A DNA stretch of 64,000 nt from Aquimarina sp. Aq78. GTDB taxonomy: Bacteria > Bacteroidota > Bacteroidia > Flavobacteriales > Flavobacteriaceae. The DNA is taken from the NCBI RefSeq assembly GCF_900299525.1, contig NZ_OMKA01000024.1, positions 248,001 through 312,000 on the forward strand. The letters are read 5' to 3'. The notes below the pieces were generated by a model, which saw nothing but the letters and a program-made list of their open reading frames with translations, searched no databases and was not told the origin of the DNA. Position numbers and translations under genes: made by a program. This document shows positions 30,367 through 38,603 of the stretch, in pieces (the stretch's first letter is position 1; every line of letters begins with the position of its first letter).

Positions 30367-31890
30367 ATGAAAACAACAGTTTTTAGTCTGGTAGCTTTAT
30401 TAGGCACCACGGCAATGATCGCACAATCGAACAATAGTTCTGTTACACAGACAGGAGAAAAAAATTTTACTAATGTTACTCAAATAGGAGTTTCTAATTC
30501 TTCTTTAACTATTCAAAATGGGATAAGCAATAATGCAGAAACTATACAAGGGAGTAAGGAGTTTAACTCTAGTAGTGGGATTGTAAAACAAATTCAAACA
30601 GGAAATAAGAACTCTACCTATGCCCAACATGAAGAAAAGAATAATCGAATAAACCAGGTGCAAATTGGTAATCGTAACTCCTTAGATACTAGACAAAATT
30701 TAAAATATGAAGGAGGAAATAATATAGCAAGACAACGTCAAAAAGGAAATAGGAATGATGCTATAATATCCCAAGAAGGAATATCTAATTCTGCGTTTCA
30801 GGTGCAAATAGGTAAAGGTAACTCTGCTTCTTCGAAGCAATTAGGAAGCAATGACCTTAGTAGGCTTATGCAGGTAGGGAACTTTAATACTGCTTCGGTT
30901 TTTCAAGAGGGAGACAACAATAATTCTTTACAGAGACAAACAGGAGTTTCTAATATGGTTAAGGCTAAACAATTGGGTAAAGGTAATCTTCTGCGCCAAA
31001 TCCAACGAGGAGGTGGGAATGCAGGAACTTCTATGCAAGGAAGTAGTCTTTTTGATTCTAGAGAAGGTAGAATTGAGCAAGTGCAATATGGAAATGAGAA
31101 TTCAGCTTTTGCAAATCATGAAGAAGATAGAAATACTATTCTTCAAGGACAAGGGGGAGATGGAAATGATGCCAGGGCTGAGCAAAATTTAATTCGTTTT
31201 GGAGGTAAGAATTTTACAATTCAAATACAGAATGGTTATGGTAATTCGGCTATAGCAGCACAAGATGGAAATGAAAATCGTTTAAGCCAGTCACAATCTG
31301 GTAACGAAAATAGAGTCTCGGCAACGCAATTTGGGGTAAATAATGTGCTTTTTCAAAACCAAACAGGAGTAGATAATGAAGCAATTTCTGAACAAGGAGG
31401 ATTTTTATTTGCCTCTAGAGGTGGGATGGTGAATCAATTTCAGTATGGTAATAGCAACAAAGCATTTGCTCAGCAAGAGGAAGATAAGAATTCAATACTA
31501 CAAGCTCAGGTTGGAAACAGGAATAGTGCTTCTGCAACTCAAAACATTTTATTTTTTGGTGGAAAAAATACTGTTAAACAGGCTCAAGTTGGAAATGGAA
31601 ATATTGCCGAAGCTTATCAGGAAGGAAATTCGGATTTGAATTTAGTAGGAGAGAATAATCTAATTAATCAAATTCAAATTGGAAGTCAAAATAAAGTTAC
31701 TTCATCTCAAAATGGAATAAATAATGTAAACGATATTTTACAGTCTGGAAACATGAATATAGCAGAGGATACTCAATTTGGTATAAGTAACGATGCATCA
31801 CTAACTCAGATAGGAGACATGCATATGAGCACAATTCTTCAAACAGGAACTAATAATACTGCTAATGTGACTCAAGGAGGGGCTAATTAG
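30367..31890 (+). CDS. Curlin-repeat amyloid subunit 1 (CsgA-like)
   Basis: A 507-residue exported protein with a signal peptide (MKTTVFSLVALLGTTAMIAQ). The rest consists of about twenty curlin-type repeats with paired Q-x-G-x-x-N and Q-x-x-x-x motifs, e.g. QTGEKNFTNVTQIGVSN. Such repeats build the stacked beta-solenoid of curli fibres. E. coli CsgA has 151 residues with five repeats, so this subunit is about three times larger. By my count it has 37 Lys+Arg and 40 Asp+Glu after residue 20, so it is nearly neutral. It lies first in the curli locus. Confidence 0.85.
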   Translation: MKTTVFSLVALLGTTAMIAQSNNSSVTQTGEKNFTNVTQIGVSNSSLTIQNGISNNAETIQGSKEFNSSSGIVKQIQTGNKNSTYAQHEEKNNRINQVQIGNRNSLDTRQNLKYEGGNNIARQRQKGNRNDAIISQEGISNSAFQVQIGKGNSASSKQLGSNDLSRLMQVGNFNTASVFQEGDNNNSLQRQTGVSNMVKAKQLGKGNLLRQIQRGGGNAGTSMQGSSLFDSREGRIEQVQYGNENSAFANHEEDRNTILQGQGGDGNDARAEQNLIRFGGKNFTIQIQNGYGNSAIAAQDGNENRLSQSQSGNENRVSATQFGVNNVLFQNQTGVDNEAISEQGGFLFASRGGMVNQFQYGNSNKAFAQQEEDKNSILQAQVGNRNSASATQNILFFGGKNTVKQAQVGNGNIAEAYQEGNSDLNLVGENNLINQIQIGSQNKVTSSQNGINNVNDILQSGNMNIAEDTQFGISNDASLTQIGDMHMSTILQTGTNNTANVTQGGAN

Positions 31891-32055
31891 GTAAGGAGGT
31901 GATTGCTTTTTTTCCTTGATTTTTTAGACTTGAAAAGGTAATCAAATCTTTTTTGTCATAGAAATGGTGTTGATTTTTATAAGTAAGTAAGAATTAACCT
32001 ACTATTTTTTTTTCAAGTAAATTTTAGTAAAAAAATGATATTTGATAAACCCTTT

Positions 32056-32089
32056 AAAAACCATAGAAATCTATTTTTCTATGGTTTTT
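32056..32089 (+). terminator. Terminator after curlin gene 1
   Basis: AAAAACCATAGAAA and TTTCTATGGTTTTT form a 14-bp perfect stem with a 6-base loop, followed by T. The region 31891-32324 (434 bp) has no gene; it holds this hairpin and the promoter of curlin gene 2. Confidence 0.85.
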
Positions 32090-32324
32090 TTACATGTATT
32101 TCATCGAATAGTTGGGAAATTGATAATAATAGCTTTAATATTTTCCTAAATTTGATAATGTCAAAATGGTCGTCATACTTTTGATTATACCCCCCCAGGT
32201 CCCAAAATATATTTGTTTTACTGAATAATAATGAAGATTAGATTTTTCTGATCTTTATCGTTCTTGTGCTGTAAAATTTTTAAGTAAAGTAACTCAATTT
32301 AATCACTTTTAATATATATTACGT

Positions 32325-33848
32325 ATGAAAAAATTAGTTTTTAGCCTAGCAGCTTTATTAAGCGCTACGGCAATGATCGCACAGTCAAACAACAGTAATG
32401 TTACTCAAACCGGGGACGATAATATTGCTAATATTTCTCAGGTAGGAGCAACTAATTCTTCTTTAACAACTCAAGAAGGAAAAGCTAACAATGCAGAAGC
32501 CATCCAAGGTACTGCAGCATTTAATTCAACTAATGGAGTTGTAGAACAATCTCAAACAGGAGATAAGAACTCGGCTTTTGCTCATCATGAAGAAGCTGAT
32601 AATCAGGTGTATCAAATACAGGTAGGTAATGGTAATTCTGCTAGAGCTACTCAAAACTTGGCATTTGAAGGAGGAGGCAACGTAGCTAATCAACTTCAAG
32701 AAGGAGATAGAAACGAAGCCACAGTATCTCAAGAAGGATTAACCAATACTGCTATTCAGGTTCAATTTGGAGATGGCAATTCAGGATCTTCAAGTCAAGA
32801 AGGAATAGATAACTTTAGTGAACTTAATCAAGAAGGAAACTTTAATACAGCATCTATCACACAAGTAGGACAGAACAATCTTTCTTCACAGTCACAAATA
32901 GGAGACGCTAATATAGCTACTGCAGGACAGTGGGGAAATAATAATTCTGTAAGTCAAGACCAAGAAGGTGGAGGTAACACTGCAAATTCTGTTCAAGGTA
33001 GTACTCTTTTTGATTCTAGAGGAGGAAGAGTAGAGCAAGTACAAGCAGGTGATGAAAATAACGCGTTTGCTAATCATGAAGAAGATAATAACACTATTCT
33101 TCAAAGTCAGACAGGAGACTCTAATGATGCAAGTGCAGAGCAAAACCTAGGATCTTTTGGAGGAGACAACTTAGCTACACAAGTACAAGAAGGTAATAGT
33201 AACGTAGCTACAGCATCTCAAAACGGAAGTACTAATATTTCTGATCAATCTCAATCTGGTGATGAAAATGTTGCTTCGACAACACAATCAGGAACAAACA
33301 ATACAGCTATCCAAAGTCAAACAGGAGTTGGTAACAATGCAACTTCTATACAAGGAGGGACATTCTTTACTTCTAGAGGTGGTCTTGTAGATCAATTCCA
33401 GTCTGGTAATGGTAACGAAGCATTTGCTAGACACGAAGAGGATAATAACGTTGTAGTACAGACTCAATTAGGAGATAGAAATAATGCTTCTGCTACTCAG
33501 AACCTTATAAACTTTGGAGGAGAAAATACTACAAGACAACTTCAACTAGGAAATGGTAACGTTGCTGAAGCTTCTCAAGAAGGAAGTTCAGATTTAAATT
33601 TAGCTGGAGAAAATAACCTTGTTAGCCAAATTCAGTTTGGTGATGAAAATAGAGCTGCTTCAACTCAAAATGGGGCAAGTAATACAAGTGATATTTTCCA
33701 ATTTGGAAATATGAATGTCGCTACAGATACTCAGGTAGGAACAGGTAACAATACTTTTGTAACTCAGTTAGGAGACATGAACACTAGTGTGATTCTTCAA
33801 ACTGGAGTGAATAACGATGCTACTGTAACTCAAAATGGTTCGAATTAA
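32325..33848 (+). CDS. Curlin-repeat amyloid subunit 2 (CsgA-like, acidic)
   Basis: A 507-residue paralogue of the product of 30367-31890, with signal peptide MKKLVFSLAALLSATAMIAQ and the same number and order of curlin repeats. Copy 2 is far more acidic: I count about 11 Lys+Arg against about 54 Asp+Glu after residue 20. Many positions that are Lys or Arg in copy 1 are Asp, Glu, Ser or Thr here, with the Q, N and G skeleton retained. It probably forms the major fibre or a co-fibre with copy 1. The strong hairpin after it separates it from the secretion genes. Confidence 0.85.
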   Translation: MKKLVFSLAALLSATAMIAQSNNSNVTQTGDDNIANISQVGATNSSLTTQEGKANNAEAIQGTAAFNSTNGVVEQSQTGDKNSAFAHHEEADNQVYQIQVGNGNSARATQNLAFEGGGNVANQLQEGDRNEATVSQEGLTNTAIQVQFGDGNSGSSSQEGIDNFSELNQEGNFNTASITQVGQNNLSSQSQIGDANIATAGQWGNNNSVSQDQEGGGNTANSVQGSTLFDSRGGRVEQVQAGDENNAFANHEEDNNTILQSQTGDSNDASAEQNLGSFGGDNLATQVQEGNSNVATASQNGSTNISDQSQSGDENVASTTQSGTNNTAIQSQTGVGNNATSIQGGTFFTSRGGLVDQFQSGNGNEAFARHEEDNNVVVQTQLGDRNNASATQNLINFGGENTTRQLQLGNGNVAEASQEGSSDLNLAGENNLVSQIQFGDENRAASTQNGASNTSDIFQFGNMNVATDTQVGTGNNTFVTQLGDMNTSVILQTGVNNDATVTQNGSN

Positions 33849-33876
33849 TTAGATTCGAATAAACTTTAATATCATT

Positions 33877-33911
33877 ATAAGAGTTATACTCAATTTGAGT
33901 ATAACTCTTAT
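33877..33911 (+). terminator. Long hairpin between curlin gene 2 and the secretion genes (terminator or attenuator)
   Basis: ATAAGAGTTATACTC and GAGTATAACTCTTAT form a 15-bp perfect stem around AATTT. The following T run is interrupted (CTTGATTTTTTT), so partial read-through into the csg genes from 33938 is plausible and would give more subunit than machinery mRNA. Confidence 0.7.
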
Positions 33912-33937
33912 CTTGATTTTTTTAAATTCTGAAAAAG

Positions 33938-34459
33938 ATGAACAAAACCATTCTTATACAGGCATTGGGTTTTTTTATTTTCTTTACTTTTTCTAATGGG
34001 TATGCCCAAAATTTAAAGGAAGAAAATCAGCTTTCGATTACTGATCAAGATAAGTTTATTACCCTGTCTCAGGTTAATAATGCATTATCTGTTAGAGCAG
34101 AATCGTCATCCCTTTCTAATGGAGTAAATGCAGTTTTTATTCAACAAATAGGAACGAGTAATGCTGTGCTTTCTACTATTATTGCAGAATCTTCAGATAT
34201 TAAAATAATACAGAATGGAGATCAAAATCTAGTAGAGATAAAGGAATCCGCCAGAGAAATAGAAAAGTCGATTATACAAACAGGAAATAATAATTCTGTA
34301 ACTGATTTTTCTTTTAACCCTGATATATCAACTAATTTAGAACTTTTACAAGAAGGTAATAATCTAATTTTTGAACGATTTGGTAGTAATGAACTGTCGA
34401 AGAATTTGAAATTTAAAATGTCTGGCGATGCCAGAACTATAATTGTTAGAAGTTTTTAA
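33938..34459 (+). CDS. Small curlin-repeat protein, CsgB-like (nucleator candidate)
   Basis: A 173-residue exported protein (signal ending near SNGYAQ). It carries four degenerate curlin motifs: QQIGTSN, IQNGDQN, IQTGNNN and LQEGNN. It is much shorter and less regular than the two large subunits and has a hydrophobic, charged C-terminus (FKMSGDARTIIVRSF). In E. coli the CsgB nucleator is likewise a short curlin-repeat protein with an atypical C-terminal repeat. Position at the head of the csgEFG group supports a nucleator role. That role is inference. Confidence 0.6.
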   Translation: MNKTILIQALGFFIFFTFSNGYAQNLKEENQLSITDQDKFITLSQVNNALSVRAESSSLSNGVNAVFIQQIGTSNAVLSTIIAESSDIKIIQNGDQNLVEIKESAREIEKSIIQTGNNNSVTDFSFNPDISTNLELLQEGNNLIFERFGSNELSKNLKFKMSGDARTIIVRSF

Positions 34460-34477
34460 TAACAGACATATAAGAGT

Positions 34478-35206
34478 ATGAAGTTTAAACTTGTCATACT
34501 TGCAACTCTATTTTTTCAGGTTTCAATTGCACAGTTCACAAATACTGATGTAGTTGCAAAAGTTAAAACAGTAACTATTGATGATATAATTTCTGTGGTT
34601 GCTACTGCTACTAATACTACAGAAGTATACAAAAGTTTGCAATATACTATTACCGTTTTTCGAACAGATGCAAATAATAATGTATCTAAAACTAATCAGG
34701 AAGGAAGATTTACGCTAGAAGCAAATGAAAATAGAGAGCTCTCACGAGGGGCAATTAGTGTAGATGAGAGCGATAAAATAGTATTGCTCTTATTGATCTA
34801 TGAGGAAGATAAGATTATAGGCAAAGATAGACTTGCTTTTAATGAAGAAGCTGATCAGGAGTCTAAAACAACAGAAGGTGATGTTTCCTCTGATGATGGA
34901 ATTGAGCTAAAAGGAATAGTAATAGAAGAGACTAAAACCAAACCAGGAAGAGACTTTTATGAATATTTCTATGCTTCATATACATTAAACCAAATAAATG
35001 GTAATAGAGTCGTAGGAGTATATGAAAAATTAAGCTTTGGGCGTAGTACCATTATTCAGGTAAAAATAGAAGATAATGTCATTCATGAATTTATAGGAAA
35101 ACCAGATTTGGAATATTTAGAACAAATGTCGAAAATTGCAATTCGAAAAGTATATAAATATTTTAAGGATCTAAAAAAACAGAAGAACGATATTTTTCAG
35201 TATTAA
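34478..35206 (+). CDS. csgE: CsgE-type curli secretion factor with an N-terminal CsgH-like domain
   Basis: A 242-residue exported protein (signal MKFKLVILATLFFQVSIAQ). The C-terminal domain (about residues 143-242) matches CsgE: GIVIEETKTKPGRDFYEYF, the SFGRSTIIQVKIEDN strands and the YKYFKD C-terminal helix. CsgE caps the CsgG pore from the periplasm. Residues about 22-122 form an extra beta-sandwich-like domain (YTITVFRTDANNNVSKTNQEG, FTLEANENRELSRGAISV), which resembles alphaproteobacterial CsgH, an inhibitor of curli assembly. E. coli CsgE is only about 129 residues. The CsgH likeness is my reading and needs a profile search. Confidence 0.75.
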   Translation: MKFKLVILATLFFQVSIAQFTNTDVVAKVKTVTIDDIISVVATATNTTEVYKSLQYTITVFRTDANNNVSKTNQEGRFTLEANENRELSRGAISVDESDKIVLLLLIYEEDKIIGKDRLAFNEEADQESKTTEGDVSSDDGIELKGIVIEETKTKPGRDFYEYFYASYTLNQINGNRVVGVYEKLSFGRSTIIQVKIEDNVIHEFIGKPDLEYLEQMSKIAIRKVYKYFKDLKKQKNDIFQY

Positions 35207-35216
35207 AACAGTTAAG

Positions 35217-35621
35217 ATGAAATCAATTTTAATAACGCTTTTTCTTGTTTTCTCGATATGTAGCTTTTCTTTTGGACAAGATTTGGTGTATAAGCCTGTA
35301 AATCCTGCTTTTGGAGGAGATACATTTAATTATCAATGGCTTCTTAGCTCTGCCGAAGCTCAGAATAAATTTACAGACCCTACTGATTCAAGAGATCAAA
35401 GATCGGATGTAGAAAGATTTACAGAAAATCTGAATAACCAGTTATTAAGCCAAATATCAAGAACACTATTTACCGAACAATTTGGAGAAGGAGGTCTTAC
35501 TGAAGGGACATATAATTTTGGGTCTTTATTCATAGAAATCTTTCCTTCCGGAGAAGGGTTAGTAATCAATATTTTAGATACAAGCACCGGAGACCAATCC
35601 CAAGTAATAATTCCTAATTAA
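35217..35621 (+). CDS. csgF: Curli assembly factor CsgF
   Basis: A 134-residue exported protein (signal ending SFGQ). The mature N-terminus DLVYKPVNPAFGGDTFNYQW matches the CsgF motif (NPNFGGN...), which inserts into the CsgG pore. The segment LLSSAEAQNKFTDP is also typical. The C-terminal helix-strand part (FTENLNNQLLSQISRTL and later TGDQSQVIIPN) completes the family. Its size is normal for CsgF. It lies 10 bp after the csgE gene. Confidence 0.92.
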   Translation: MKSILITLFLVFSICSFSFGQDLVYKPVNPAFGGDTFNYQWLLSSAEAQNKFTDPTDSRDQRSDVERFTENLNNQLLSQISRTLFTEQFGEGGLTEGTYNFGSLFIEIFPSGEGLVINILDTSTGDQSQVIIPN

Positions 35622-35627
35622 TTTTTA

Positions 35628-37112
35628 ATGTATCATAAGTTTTATAAAGTAATCGCAGTAATTTCTTGTGCATTTTTATTATACGGATGTGGGACGTATT
35701 TCAATCAGCCCATAACTATCGAGAATGCCAGAATAGGTGAAGATACAGAAGTTACAAAAACATTAAGGGATTTTCCGCCACCGGTAGAGCCTGTTGTTGT
35801 TGGGGTGTATAAATTTAGAGATCAAACGGGGCAATATAAGCCCACAGAGAATGGAAGCACTTTTAGTACAGCTGTTACTCAAGGAGCAACAACAATTTTG
35901 ATCAAAGCACTCGAAGATTCTAAGTGGTTTGTGCCTATCGAAAGAGAAAATCTAAGCAACTTGCTTAACGAACGTAATATTATACGTTCTACAAGAAAAG
36001 AATATAGAAAAACCAAAAATACCAACGAACCACAATTACCACCATTATTATATGCAGGGATTATCCTCGAAGGAGGTATTGTGTCTTATGATTCTAATAT
36101 CATTACTGGTGGATTGGGAGCAAGGTATTTTGGTGTAGGAGCTTCTACTCAATATAGACAAGACAGAATTACAATATACTTAAGAGCAGTTTCTACTTCT
36201 AGCGGTAAAATCTTAAAAACAGTATATGTGTCTAAAACTATTTTATCACAAGCCTTAGACGCGAATTTCTTTAGGTATATAAAATTTAAGAGACTACTTG
36301 AAGCCGAAACTGGTTTTACCAAGAATGAACCTGCTCAAATGGCAGTGTCAGAGGCAATAGAGAAAGCAGTAGAATCTTTAATTGTAGAAGGAATTGAAGA
36401 TAAATTATGGGCTGTTAATGCAGAATCAGAAGCTGTAAATACATTAATAGAAAAATACAAAGCAGAAAAATATGAAGCTCAAAATACTGCCTTGTATGAT
36501 CGATATTTTAAAGAAAGAAGAGCTAAGATCTCTGCGTTTTTAAAAGGGGGAACTGCTTTAGTTAGCGGGGATTATAATAATCCAGAGCTTACCTATTCTG
36601 CAAAGATTGGAGCCCGATGGTATTTTAATCCATACCTTAATGTTAATGTGAGTATTAATAAATTTGAACTTACTAATCAAAACTCATTCTCTAAGGGGTT
36701 TAATGCTTTTGATCTTAATACAGAATTAAATCTTTTACCCTTTGATAAATTATCTCCCTTCTTGTTTGGAGGAGTAGGTATTGTGAATGATGATGATTTT
36801 GATACTACATTGTTTAAATTTCAATATGGAGGTGGTGTAGAGTATTTAATTTCTGATAAAATAGGTATTTCTGTTGGAGCTACGCATAACCTGGTTCTTA
36901 GCGACGAATTAGATGGCGTAGTTCAAGGAAAACGAGATGATCAATACTTTAATTTTTCTTTTGGACTAAATTGGTATTTTGGAAACCCCGTGAGGGCGAA
37001 TAAAAAATCAAGATTACAGAAACAAGAGAAAAATATAGAATTGCGTGAGTTAAGAAAAAGAAATAGAAAAATTAGAAAAGAAGGTATAATCCTAGAAGAT
37101 AAAAACAAATAG
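35628..37112 (+). CDS. csgG: CsgG-type outer-membrane curli secretion channel with a C-terminal barrel-like extension
   Basis: A 494-residue lipoprotein (lipobox LLYGC, Cys 21). Residues about 22-265 match CsgG: VVVGVYKFRDQTGQYKP, ERENLSNLLNERNIIR, and the C-terminal helix region. CsgG forms the nonameric outer-membrane pore for curlin export. Residues about 300-465 are an extra domain with about eight amphipathic strands ending FNFSFGLNWYFGNPV, like small outer-membrane barrels. A Lys/Arg-rich tail follows (about 466-494). E. coli CsgG is about 277 residues and has no such domain. It lies 6 bp after csgF. Confidence 0.88.
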   Translation: MYHKFYKVIAVISCAFLLYGCGTYFNQPITIENARIGEDTEVTKTLRDFPPPVEPVVVGVYKFRDQTGQYKPTENGSTFSTAVTQGATTILIKALEDSKWFVPIERENLSNLLNERNIIRSTRKEYRKTKNTNEPQLPPLLYAGIILEGGIVSYDSNIITGGLGARYFGVGASTQYRQDRITIYLRAVSTSSGKILKTVYVSKTILSQALDANFFRYIKFKRLLEAETGFTKNEPAQMAVSEAIEKAVESLIVEGIEDKLWAVNAESEAVNTLIEKYKAEKYEAQNTALYDRYFKERRAKISAFLKGGTALVSGDYNNPELTYSAKIGARWYFNPYLNVNVSINKFELTNQNSFSKGFNAFDLNTELNLLPFDKLSPFLFGGVGIVNDDDFDTTLFKFQYGGGVEYLISDKIGISVGATHNLVLSDELDGVVQGKRDDQYFNFSFGLNWYFGNPVRANKKSRLQKQEKNIELRELRKRNRKIRKEGIILEDKNK

Positions 37113-37115
37113 GTT

Positions 37116-38603
37116 GTGAGAAAAATTATCATAAGAATAATAAGTGTTTTTGTAATTATAGCTGCAGCTTCTTGTAGTGAGGATACTATTGATTCTGAAG
37201 GTTTAGGGTCTGTTAAAGGAAAAGTAGTTAAAAAAGGAACTAACGAACCTTTAGAAAATGTAAAAATATCAACAAATCCTGCTTCAAGTACTGTTTTTAC
37301 AGATAAAGATGGAGTCTATCATTTAAAAAATGTACCCTCGGGAGATTACTCTCTTTCGGGTCAACGAGAAGGACTATTAGCGGTTTTTGAAGCGGTTACA
37401 GTACTAACAGATAAAGAGCTTGAGGTAGTTCTTGAAATGGATATCGCAACAGCTACAAACCGCCCACCAGAAGCTGCAACTTTAGTAACACCAGTAGATA
37501 ATGTAGTTGATCTTCCATTAGAAGTTAAATTGGTATGGAGTGCCAAGGATCCTGATAAAGATAAACTTACTTACAAGGTGAGTTTAAGGAACGAAGAAAA
37601 TTCTAATGTAGAAGTTTTTGAAAATATTACTGATACAACATATACCGTATCCGGACTTTCTTTTAGTACAAAGTATTTTTGGCAAGTAAGCTCTAGTGAT
37701 GATATTAATGATCCGGTTAATAGTACAACTTTTGCCTTTACGACTGCGGGACCACCAAACAATAGAATTGTATATACAAAACTAGTTGGCGGTAACAGTG
37801 TTATTTATTCTGCAGATGAGAGTGGAGGAACAGAAATAGCACTTACTTCGGTATCAAAAAATAGTTTTAGACCTAGAAGAAATGCTACGACCAAAAAGAT
37901 TGCTTTTTTACAGTCGGTCGGCTCTCAGACTCATTTATTTACAATGAACCAGGATGGTTCACAAATAAAACAAATTACCTCCACGGTTGGAGTATCTGGG
38001 TTTAACCTTGAAGAAGTGGATTTTTCATGGGATGCCAATGGAGCAAAATTGTTATTTCCTAATCAGAATAAATTATATTCTATAAATATAGATGGAAGCG
38101 GCTTGAGCTTAATATATCAAACCACTGGTGATTTGATTACCGAAGTAGATAAAAATGAAAACACAGGTATAACTGCTATAAAAACAAATAATTTAGATGG
38201 ATACGGAGTACAAATTTTTACCATTGATGGAGCTGGAGTGGTACAAAACACGGTGCTTACGGGCCAAAATGGTGCTGCAGGTAGTATCAATTTGTCTGTA
38301 GATGGCACTAAGTTATTATACAGCCGAGATATGTCTGGAGCAGAAAATCCAAATTATCGTCAATTAGATTCTCGTGTGTTTATCTATGATTTAGGCACTA
38401 TGGTAAGTACAGATCTATCTACAGATAAAACAGCAGGAACTAATGATCTGGATGCTCGATTTTCACCAAACGAAGCCAGTATAATTTTTGTAAACACCTC
38501 GAATGATGGTATTTCTGAAAAAAATATCCTGACTGTACCCATTGCAGATTTAGATGGAAGGGTGACAATATTACAAAAAGCAGCAATGCCCGATTGGGAA
38601 TAG
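37116..38603 (+). CDS. Lipoprotein with carboxypeptidase-like, FN3 and beta-propeller domains, last gene of the curli operon
   Basis: A 495-residue lipoprotein (GTG start at 37116; lipobox AAASC at about residue 20). Domains: carboxypeptidase regulatory-like/CarboxypepD_reg type, residues about 30-95 (VKGKVVKKGTNEPLENVKIS); fibronectin type III, about 105-210 (LVWSAKDPDKDKLTYKVSLR); and a TolB/PD40-type beta-propeller, about 215-490 (FSWDANGAKLLFPNQN, RFSPNEASIIFVN). The gene starts 3 bp after csgG, so it is probably co-translated. Possible role: surface scaffold or anchor of the fibre; inferred from position only. Confidence 0.7.
   Translation: MRKIIIRIISVFVIIAAASCSEDTIDSEGLGSVKGKVVKKGTNEPLENVKISTNPASSTVFTDKDGVYHLKNVPSGDYSLSGQREGLLAVFEAVTVLTDKELEVVLEMDIATATNRPPEAATLVTPVDNVVDLPLEVKLVWSAKDPDKDKLTYKVSLRNEENSNVEVFENITDTTYTVSGLSFSTKYFWQVSSSDDINDPVNSTTFAFTTAGPPNNRIVYTKLVGGNSVIYSADESGGTEIALTSVSKNSFRPRRNATTKKIAFLQSVGSQTHLFTMNQDGSQIKQITSTVGVSGFNLEEVDFSWDANGAKLLFPNQNKLYSINIDGSGLSLIYQTTGDLITEVDKNENTGITAIKTNNLDGYGVQIFTIDGAGVVQNTVLTGQNGAAGSINLSVDGTKLLYSRDMSGAENPNYRQLDSRVFIYDLGTMVSTDLSTDKTAGTNDLDARFSPNEASIIFVNTSNDGISEKNILTVPIADLDGRVTILQKAAMPDWE

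Follow-up and report, generated by a model that had tools for sequence, protein, structure and literature searches.

The window analysed here, a stretch of 64,000 nucleotides of Aquimarina sp. Aq78 (contig NZ_OMKA01000024.1), carries on its plus strand, at positions 30367 to 38603, a real curli (type VIII secretion) operon, which is ordinary in kind, with its helper parts in an arrangement specific to the lineage. Its gate protein CsgE carries an additional N-terminal domain of the CsgC/CsgH type, and in part of the Flavobacterium relatives the csgE reading frame is split between the two domains at a run of exactly ten adenines (A10). On balance, it seems probable that a CsgC/CsgH-type chaperone is tethered to the CsgE gate and that, in roughly half of the Flavobacterium species with curli (34 of the 72 sampled), the A10 tract works as a switch by programmed slippage. 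Without slippage, the gene would yield a free, exported chaperone of the CsgH type; slippage would give a CsgH-CsgE gate, so that the ratio of chaperone to gate would be set by a single gene. Bench work would be best spent on the fused gate chaperone and on the A10 switch of the relatives.

The locus comprises seven open reading frames (ORFs) of 507, 507, 173, 242, 134, 494, and 495 residues, arranged in the order csgA1, csgA2, csgX (a short curlin gene), csgE, csgF, csgG, and a gene for a propeller lipoprotein. This content, place and orientation had been claimed in a preliminary description made from the letters alone, and the ORF reading agrees with it. The same holds for its assignment of the curlin, CsgE, CsgF, and CsgG proteins, which all score above the curated Pfam cut-offs. 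The intergenic gaps measure 434 bp between csgA1 and csgA2 and 89 bp between csgA2 and csgX, followed by 18, 10, 6, and 3 bp. Due to these last four short gaps, the stretch from csgX to the lipoprotein gene looks like a single tight transcription unit.

The gene set was followed through 79 named loci, taken from the best 80 of at least 521 confirmed matches (36 of the 79 are Aquimarina by record title). Further surveys covered 199 Flavobacteriaceae genomes, 299 genomes of the genus Flavobacterium, a sample of 296 genomes of the phylum and 15 stretches of the wider phylum. The genes csgE, csgF, and csgG occur in all 79 named loci. In 78 of them a csgX gene precedes csgE by no more than 700 bases, and 78 have a large curlin gene, the misses being on contigs with nearby ends. 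The lipoprotein gene was found in 75, and the four contigs lacking it end within 1.1 kb past the last csg gene. CsgE is an intact fusion in 63 loci, a double-domain form in two and split at the linker in 14. The proposal that flavobacteria have a curli variant of their own, marked by fused domains, is borne out by the gene set kept across these loci. An exception to the gene order is L106, in which two curlin genes lie between csgE and csgF, and in L104 (Flavobacteriaceae bacterium RhTr2) a second csgX-E-F-G-lipoprotein set is located directly upstream of the first.

Gene content, domain identities and operon conservation are read directly from the loci, and it is very probable that the genes form a flavobacterial curli operon with a barrel-bearing CsgG pore, a chaperone-tethered CsgE gate, coupling by CsgF, two curlin subunits, a short curlin nucleator or cap and an anchoring lipoprotein. 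CsgG would be the outer-membrane pore, each subunit bearing its own eight-strand barrel, and since the E. coli pore is nonameric, a ring of nine satellite barrels would surround it. CsgE would cap the periplasmic mouth of the pore, and the fusion would bring one CsgC/CsgH-type domain per subunit. CsgF would couple the pore to the surface. Outside the cell the two large curlin subunits would polymerise, with the short curlin protein probably serving as nucleator or cap, and the lipoprotein, which is probably surface-exposed, would hold or organise the fibre at the cell.

As in E. coli curli, CsgA-type repeats, CsgE, CsgF, and CsgG are present. Unlike in E. coli, the genes form one operon, the subunits are about three times longer and have no 22-residue N-terminal targeting segment (N22), a CsgC-type domain is fused to CsgE and a barrel to CsgG, and there is an extra lipoprotein, while no separate csgC was seen at the locus. 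For Bacteroidetes, the main text of Dueholm et al. (2012; PMC3521004) gives CsgA proteins of up to 529 residues with 22 repeats, reports csgD only in Spirosoma, and states that csgC is lacking and that the size of CsgG is unaffected by that of CsgA. The large multi-repeat subunits and the Bacteroidetes operons without csgC are thus already published and not new, whereas the main-text parts of that survey, its supplements aside, say nothing of a CsgC/CsgH domain fused to CsgE or of a barrel on CsgG. A csgD gene was not seen among the ORFs listed between 27000 and 42000, a range for which no dedicated CsgD search was made.

The N-terminal domain of CsgE

The csgE gene and its two domains are located as follows:

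34478..35206, plus strand: csgE, 242 residues, CsgC/CsgH-type domain followed by CsgE domain (profiles, AlphaFold2 (AF2) model, fold comparison)
34550..34840, plus strand: CsgC/CsgH-type seven-strand domain, residues 25-121 (CsgH model NF041112, E-value 2.7e-6; AF2; Foldseek; VIA)
34907..35185, plus strand: CsgE domain, residues 144-236 (PF10627, 40.3 bits, cut-off 25; profile to 2na4)

An extra domain in CsgE had been noted before, and residues 25-121 account for it. The accompanying statement that CsgC is absent holds in so far as no separate gene was seen, but profiles, PDB sequences and the predicted fold assign the N-terminal half of CsgE to the CsgC/CsgH type, although the window copy scores below the curated CsgH cut-off. 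A loss of CsgC was rejected, as this domain matches the CsgH and CsgC models and CsgC of the PDB, and across the 199 Flavobacteriaceae genomes the CsgH matches fall on csgE ORFs only. Because the domain is fused to CsgE, it would tether a periplasmic amyloid chaperone to the gate.

A profile of 13 CsgE proteins found CsgE (2na4) among the PDB sequences at 7e-10 (positions 154-248) and, with its other half (positions 39-118), the CsgC entries 2xsk and 2y2t at 0.005 and 0.007. The N-domain-only profile also reached CsgC (E-value 0.008). Among 30 N-domains, 26 match the CsgH model and 13 the CsgC model (E-value ≤ 0.01), and the curated CsgH cut-off is passed by the relatives L207 (44.2 bits) and L075 (36.4 bits). 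An N-domain profile matches CsgE in all 79 named loci, including 51 that had no part in building it.

The AF2 model of CsgE (47 aligned sequences, mean predicted local distance difference test (pLDDT) score 84.7) consists of a seven-strand immunoglobulin (Ig)-like sandwich (residues 25-121), a fold common to unrelated Ig domains, a linker (125-142, of low confidence) and the CsgE domain. Foldseek placed CsgH (2n59) first and CsgC third. In VIA, CsgC came first with Z 12.7 and a root-mean-square deviation of 2.4 over 94 residues. CsgE 2na4 is not among the fold-comparison rows shown, as N-domain matches fill those lists.

The most telling control is genomic: across the 199 Flavobacteriaceae genomes, the CsgH model matches 30 (E-value ≤ 0.01), in each case at the place and in the open frame of the csgE ORF. 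When compared by eye, all 30 belong to the 42 genomes with csgE, and in the genome of the window the CsgE N-domain is the sole match. The phylum sample yielded 31 CsgE matches in 29 genomes, and 29 CsgE proteins were scanned (all but L009 and a third copy in G400; L055 is the window's own gene). A CsgH match is found in 9 of the 10 CsgE from Flavobacteriales, window included, and in none of the 19 from outside this order, 7 of which carry a Pfam LysM domain.

Several observations weigh against the assignment as a CsgC/CsgH-type chaperone. The N-domain of the window reaches only 27.4 bits with the CsgH model, below the curated cut-off of 35, and its CsgC match (0.0008) is likewise below the cut-off. 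Only 4 of the 30 genome matches to the CsgH model exceed the cut-off, and 12 of the 42 csgE genomes have no such match at E-value ≤ 0.01. In the N-domain-only PDB search, only chance rows follow CsgC, with HIV gp120 chains from 0.09 upward, and CsgH 2n59 is not among the 60 best rows. Ig-like domains of GH2 enzymes tie with CsgC in VIA (Z 12.3 versus 12.7), so that the fold by itself would not decide the identity of the domain. Neither the CxC of CsgC nor the distant cysteine pair of CsgH occurs in the N-domain; the window CsgE has no cysteine, and beyond residue 22 cysteines occur in just 2 of 62 relatives. Finally, the N-domain is acidic with an isoelectric point (pI) of 4.76 compared to 4.05 for mature CsgA2 and 5.81 for CsgA1. 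It thus falls short of the excess of about two units over the cognate CsgA that characterises CsgC/CsgH chaperones; 16 of 62 loci reach an excess of two units.

These points lead to the alternative that the N-domain is a generic Ig-like scaffold whose only task is to place CsgE in the periplasm and which does not act against amyloid. The near equality of many unrelated Ig-like domains by fold, the acidic character and the missing CsgC/CsgH cysteines would fit this, and the LysM domain found at the same place in other Bacteroidota CsgE suggests a positioning role. However, among the NCBIfam models CsgH and CsgC gather the most N-domain matches, and the only other one with a match has one of the 30, although in Pfam DUF1425 equals CsgC with 3 of 30 each. 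Moreover, free CsgH genes above the curated cut-off adjoin curli genes in L197, L203, and L204, whose CsgE shows no CsgH match, and the frameshifted loci treated below would release the N-domain as a free exported domain. A plain scaffold is therefore considered unlikely compared to the tethered chaperone.

Examples of CsgE with an N-terminal LysM (peptidoglycan-binding) domain in place of the chaperone domain, from another Bacteroidota lineage, are L195:7584-8333, L208:7281-8027, and L209:6670-7527. A second CsgH-type domain ahead of the CsgE domain is found in L075, L138, and L154, with CsgE proteins of about 395 residues. It was recognised by alignment in L075 (7029-8225), from the translation in L138 (8803-9990), and from the length in L154; L138 and L154 belong to the 79 named loci. 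In Salegentibacter salinarum, a free CsgH-type gene above the curated cut-off (L115:2964-3365) lies beside a fused csgE.

Alphaproteobacterial CsgH (Taylor et al., 2016; PMC4838910) resembles the N-domain in profile and fold, while the latter is fused to CsgE, acidic and without the disulphide cysteines. A CsgH-like Bacteroidetes subfamily is noted in that paper, in whose main text the words "fused" and "fusion" do not occur. No description of the csgE fusion, of LysM-CsgE or of a csgE frameshift was seen among the open-access literature listings searched, including PMC3521004, PMC4838910, PMC5135000, PMC10192328, and PMC12822426, supplements aside. The 2012 survey held the gene for the periplasmic amyloid inhibitor to be absent from Bacteroidetes curli, and a domain of this type is found here within the gate protein. 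The fusion is a natural Rosetta-stone link of CsgC/CsgH to CsgE and a direct route to testing the coupling of chaperoning and gating.

The A10 tract in csgE of Flavobacterium

In the genus survey, CsgE was found in 72 of the 299 genomes, and all 72 domain junctions were read, with 34 being split and 38 fused. The split loci of this survey are L156 to L194 without L172, L179, L181, L183, and L184. Among the named loci, the 14 split ones are all Flavobacterium or [Flexibacter] sp. by record title (L117, L122, L123, L125, L129, L131, L135, L137, L139, L140, L142, L149, L151, and L155). Of these, L123 is from F. johnsoniae strain CI04.

In each of the 34 split genes of the genus survey, the linker between the CsgH-type and the CsgE domain comprises exactly A10 and then G, with the phase unchanged throughout. 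Frame zero ends at a stop codon 1-31 bases past the tract, and the CsgE domain continues in the -1 frame. The previous stop in the -1 frame lies 2-47 bases upstream of the tract, so that a separate signal peptide would not fit into this frame. The tract is retained even though the synonymous sites are near saturation, with a median proportion of synonymous differences (pS) of 0.70 among the split genes. In the out-of-frame CsgE domain the proportion of nonsynonymous differences (pN) is below pS in 561 of 561 pairs, which points to purifying selection. The split csgE hence combines a conserved slippery tract, a fixed phase and a selected downstream frame.

For comparison, 262,146 coding bases of the csgF, csgG, and lipoprotein genes of the named loci contain eight runs of A8, one of A9 and none of A10. 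The linkers of fused Flavobacterium genes range from 0 (no A run of at least 7) to runs of 11, and runs of 9 or 10 occur in fused Aquimarina genes at 7 of 37 loci. The csgE gene of the window is unbroken, and its longest A run, of seven, is located near the 3′ end, outside the linker.

The pattern suggests that the A10 tract is a site of programmed slippage, which would yield both the free chaperone and the fusion. The sequence A AAA AAG is a motif for ribosomal -1 shifting. Either this or slippage of RNA polymerase on the A tract would serve. The latter was demonstrated on a poly-A run in tssM1 of Citrobacter rodentium, for which the source describes, as proposed here, a poly-A run just ahead of a stop and two length variants per gene (PMC4256274). 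Unlike the split csgE, which is read from sequence, tssM1 has an A11 run, belongs to type VI secretion and was demonstrated by experiment.

A phase-variation tract or a decaying gene could also explain the interruption. Homopolymers are classic contingency sites, and the split/fused label changes only three times on the tree by parsimony, so that the 34 split cases are not independent. A downstream RNA structure was considered as a frameshift stimulator and found to be unconvincing, with a median z of -1.26 (range -3.64 to 0.89; 34 loci, mononucleotide shuffles). Against phase variation or decay, however, stand the exact length and phase of the tract in all 34 genes at such a high pS, and the selection on the out-of-frame CsgE domain. 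Furthermore, all 14 named split loci retain csgF, csgG, csgX, a large curlin gene and the lipoprotein gene, and L117, whose record is titled chromosome, carries the A10 split, too. Phase variation or decay therefore seems doubtful, and programmed slippage is preferred. If true, slippage would be a recoding switch in an amyloid secretion system, and ordinary gene calling would show the split csgE as two genes or as a pseudogene.

The CsgG barrel and the lipoprotein

Downstream of csgE, the following features were identified:

35217..35621, plus strand: csgF, 134 residues (PF10614, 135.7 bits, cut-off 25.8)
35628..37112, plus strand: csgG, 494-residue lipoprotein by inspection, CsgG domain, C-terminal barrel and basic tail (PF03783, 226.5 bits, cut-off 20.8)
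36510..36989, plus strand: predicted eight-strand OmpA/NspA/OmpW-like beta-barrel, CsgG residues 295-454 (AF2; VIA Z 16-19)
37116..38603, plus strand: 495-residue lipoprotein with CSEDTI N-terminus, carboxypeptidase-regulatory-like, fn3-like and propeller-like parts (Pfam/NCBIfam; alignment of 13)
37173..37190, plus strand: lipobox cysteine and acidic residues resembling the Bacteroidetes lipoprotein export signal (alignment; compared with the signal as described in PMC5080379)

The CsgG profile meets CsgG structures at an E-value of 4e-82. The extra part of CsgG, which had been pointed out beforehand, is borne out as a predicted outer-membrane beta-barrel. Its strands have high local AF2 confidence; the whole model is only middling with a mean pLDDT of 71.8, which counts against the barrel-bearing pore. 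In VIA, OmpA, NspA, and OmpW are among the best rows with Z 16-19, and a Legionella porin III chain heads the list. PF13505 (3.6e-6) and PorG (6.8e-7) match the barrel below their cut-offs. An identity with PorG was not adopted, given its score and the OmpA, NspA, and OmpW barrels among the best fold rows. A barrel profile matches CsgG in all 79 named loci, including 31 outside the set from which it was built. In the wider phylum, 14 of the 15 stretches yielded a csgG, with a product of 450-531 residues, and a Pfam barrel match was obtained for both CsgG proteins scanned, one of them below the cut-off. A barrel-fused CsgG is a pore of different build, which is relevant to users of CsgG nanopores.

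The lipoprotein had been described as a propeller protein. Its lipobox cysteine is evident by inspection, while the propeller part matches the TolB and Dpp5 models with E-values of 3e-10 and 3e-11, far below the curated cut-offs. The carboxypeptidase-regulatory-like domains are above and fn3 is below the cut-off. In 13 aligned lipoproteins C20 and E22 are invariant. Across L065 to L155, from which 88 lipoproteins and 92 CsgG were drawn, the mature N-terminus reads C-S-E-D/E in 71 of the 88 lipoproteins, and 76 have two acids within the next four residues; the lipid cysteine was assigned by a simple rule, wrongly so in some rows. None of the 92 CsgG has an acidic pair after the lipid cysteine. 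The CSED of the window, a polar followed by acidic residues after the lipid cysteine, has the form of the surface lipoprotein export signal of Flavobacterium johnsoniae, for which the source gives the consensus SDDFE (PMC5080379).

From these sequence features, it is plausible that the lipoprotein is surface-exposed and anchors the fibre. Alternatively, it could serve quality control in the periplasm or be unrelated to the genes next to it. Propellers of the TolB type are frequently periplasmic. In the 15 stretches of the wider phylum, the lipoprotein has about 500 residues in seven, a short form in five, and was not found in three. Both short forms that were scanned contain the carboxypeptidase-regulatory-like part, and one contains fn3. 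The gene's retention in 75 of the 79 named loci, with all misses at contig ends, and the export-signal-like N-terminus argue against these readings, so that a fibre anchor is preferred and the alternative appears improbable.

Curlin subunits and surroundings of the locus

The 5′ part of the locus contains the curlin genes, for which the curated cut-off of PF07012 is 20.7 bits:

30367..31890, plus strand: csgA1, 507-residue curlin subunit (PF07012, 61.5 bits; 28 QxGxxN motifs; pI 6.06)
32325..33848, plus strand: csgA2, 507-residue acidic curlin subunit (PF07012, 88.6 bits; 30 QxGxxN motifs; pI 4.05)
33849..33937, plus strand: csgA2-csgX gap, strong hairpin followed by T-rich sequence (fold -25.3 kcal/mol)
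33938..34459, plus strand: csgX, 173-residue short curlin-repeat protein (PF07012, 27.2 bits; 3 QxGxxN motifs)

The QxGxxN motifs of both large subunits are mostly 11 residues apart, and three interruptions have an identical 27-22-26 spacing. With an identity of 59.8% and a rate of synonymous substitution (dS) of about 0.95, the two genes are not close copies. CsgA1 contains 38 Lys/Arg residues compared to 13 in CsgA2, and lies outside the pI range of 4.05-4.73 observed for 41 large curlin proteins of 37 loci (L077 to L113, 36 of them Aquimarina). It is a diverged near-neutral paralogue of CsgA2. Among named relatives, Aquimarina macrocephali, A. atlantica, and Aquimarina sp. AU58 are the nearest, with 99% identity in CsgF. 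In these three csgA1 was not found, and a single csgA follows a glutamine synthetase gene. A recent tandem duplication was rejected, since dS between csgA2 and its counterparts in these relatives is 0.24-0.35.

In both large subunits the first QxGxxN motif is located at residue 28, and the signal peptide has about 20 residues by inspection. The repeats start about 8 residues past it, which leaves no room for an E. coli-type N22 segment, and none is present in either protein. The N-terminal CsgA targeting segment is bound by CsgG in E. coli, as described in PMC6957492.

In an alignment of 13 CsgX proteins, the Q, G, and N positions are invariant, and the last strand is similar. CsgX is a candidate CsgB-like nucleator or cap. 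The csgA2-csgX hairpin is a possible partial terminator between the subunit and the secretion genes. Most of the 75 corresponding gaps in relatives fold with a similar energy (median -23.5 kcal/mol, a value given without shuffle comparison), with perfect arms of at least 8 in 31 and a TTTT after the hairpin in 17.

The source genome has a size of 5.97 Mb in 37 contigs. A second full curli locus was sought in it, and only a further curlin gene and a weak second CsgG-domain match (33 bits) were found. This curlin-repeat gene (L064:9253-11031, 592 residues) has no recognised csg neighbour within the 13.3 kb read. The operon itself is flanked on its 5′ side by what we take, from recognising the sequences without a search, to be two glutamine synthetase genes, and on its 3′ side by a presumed purM-type gene.

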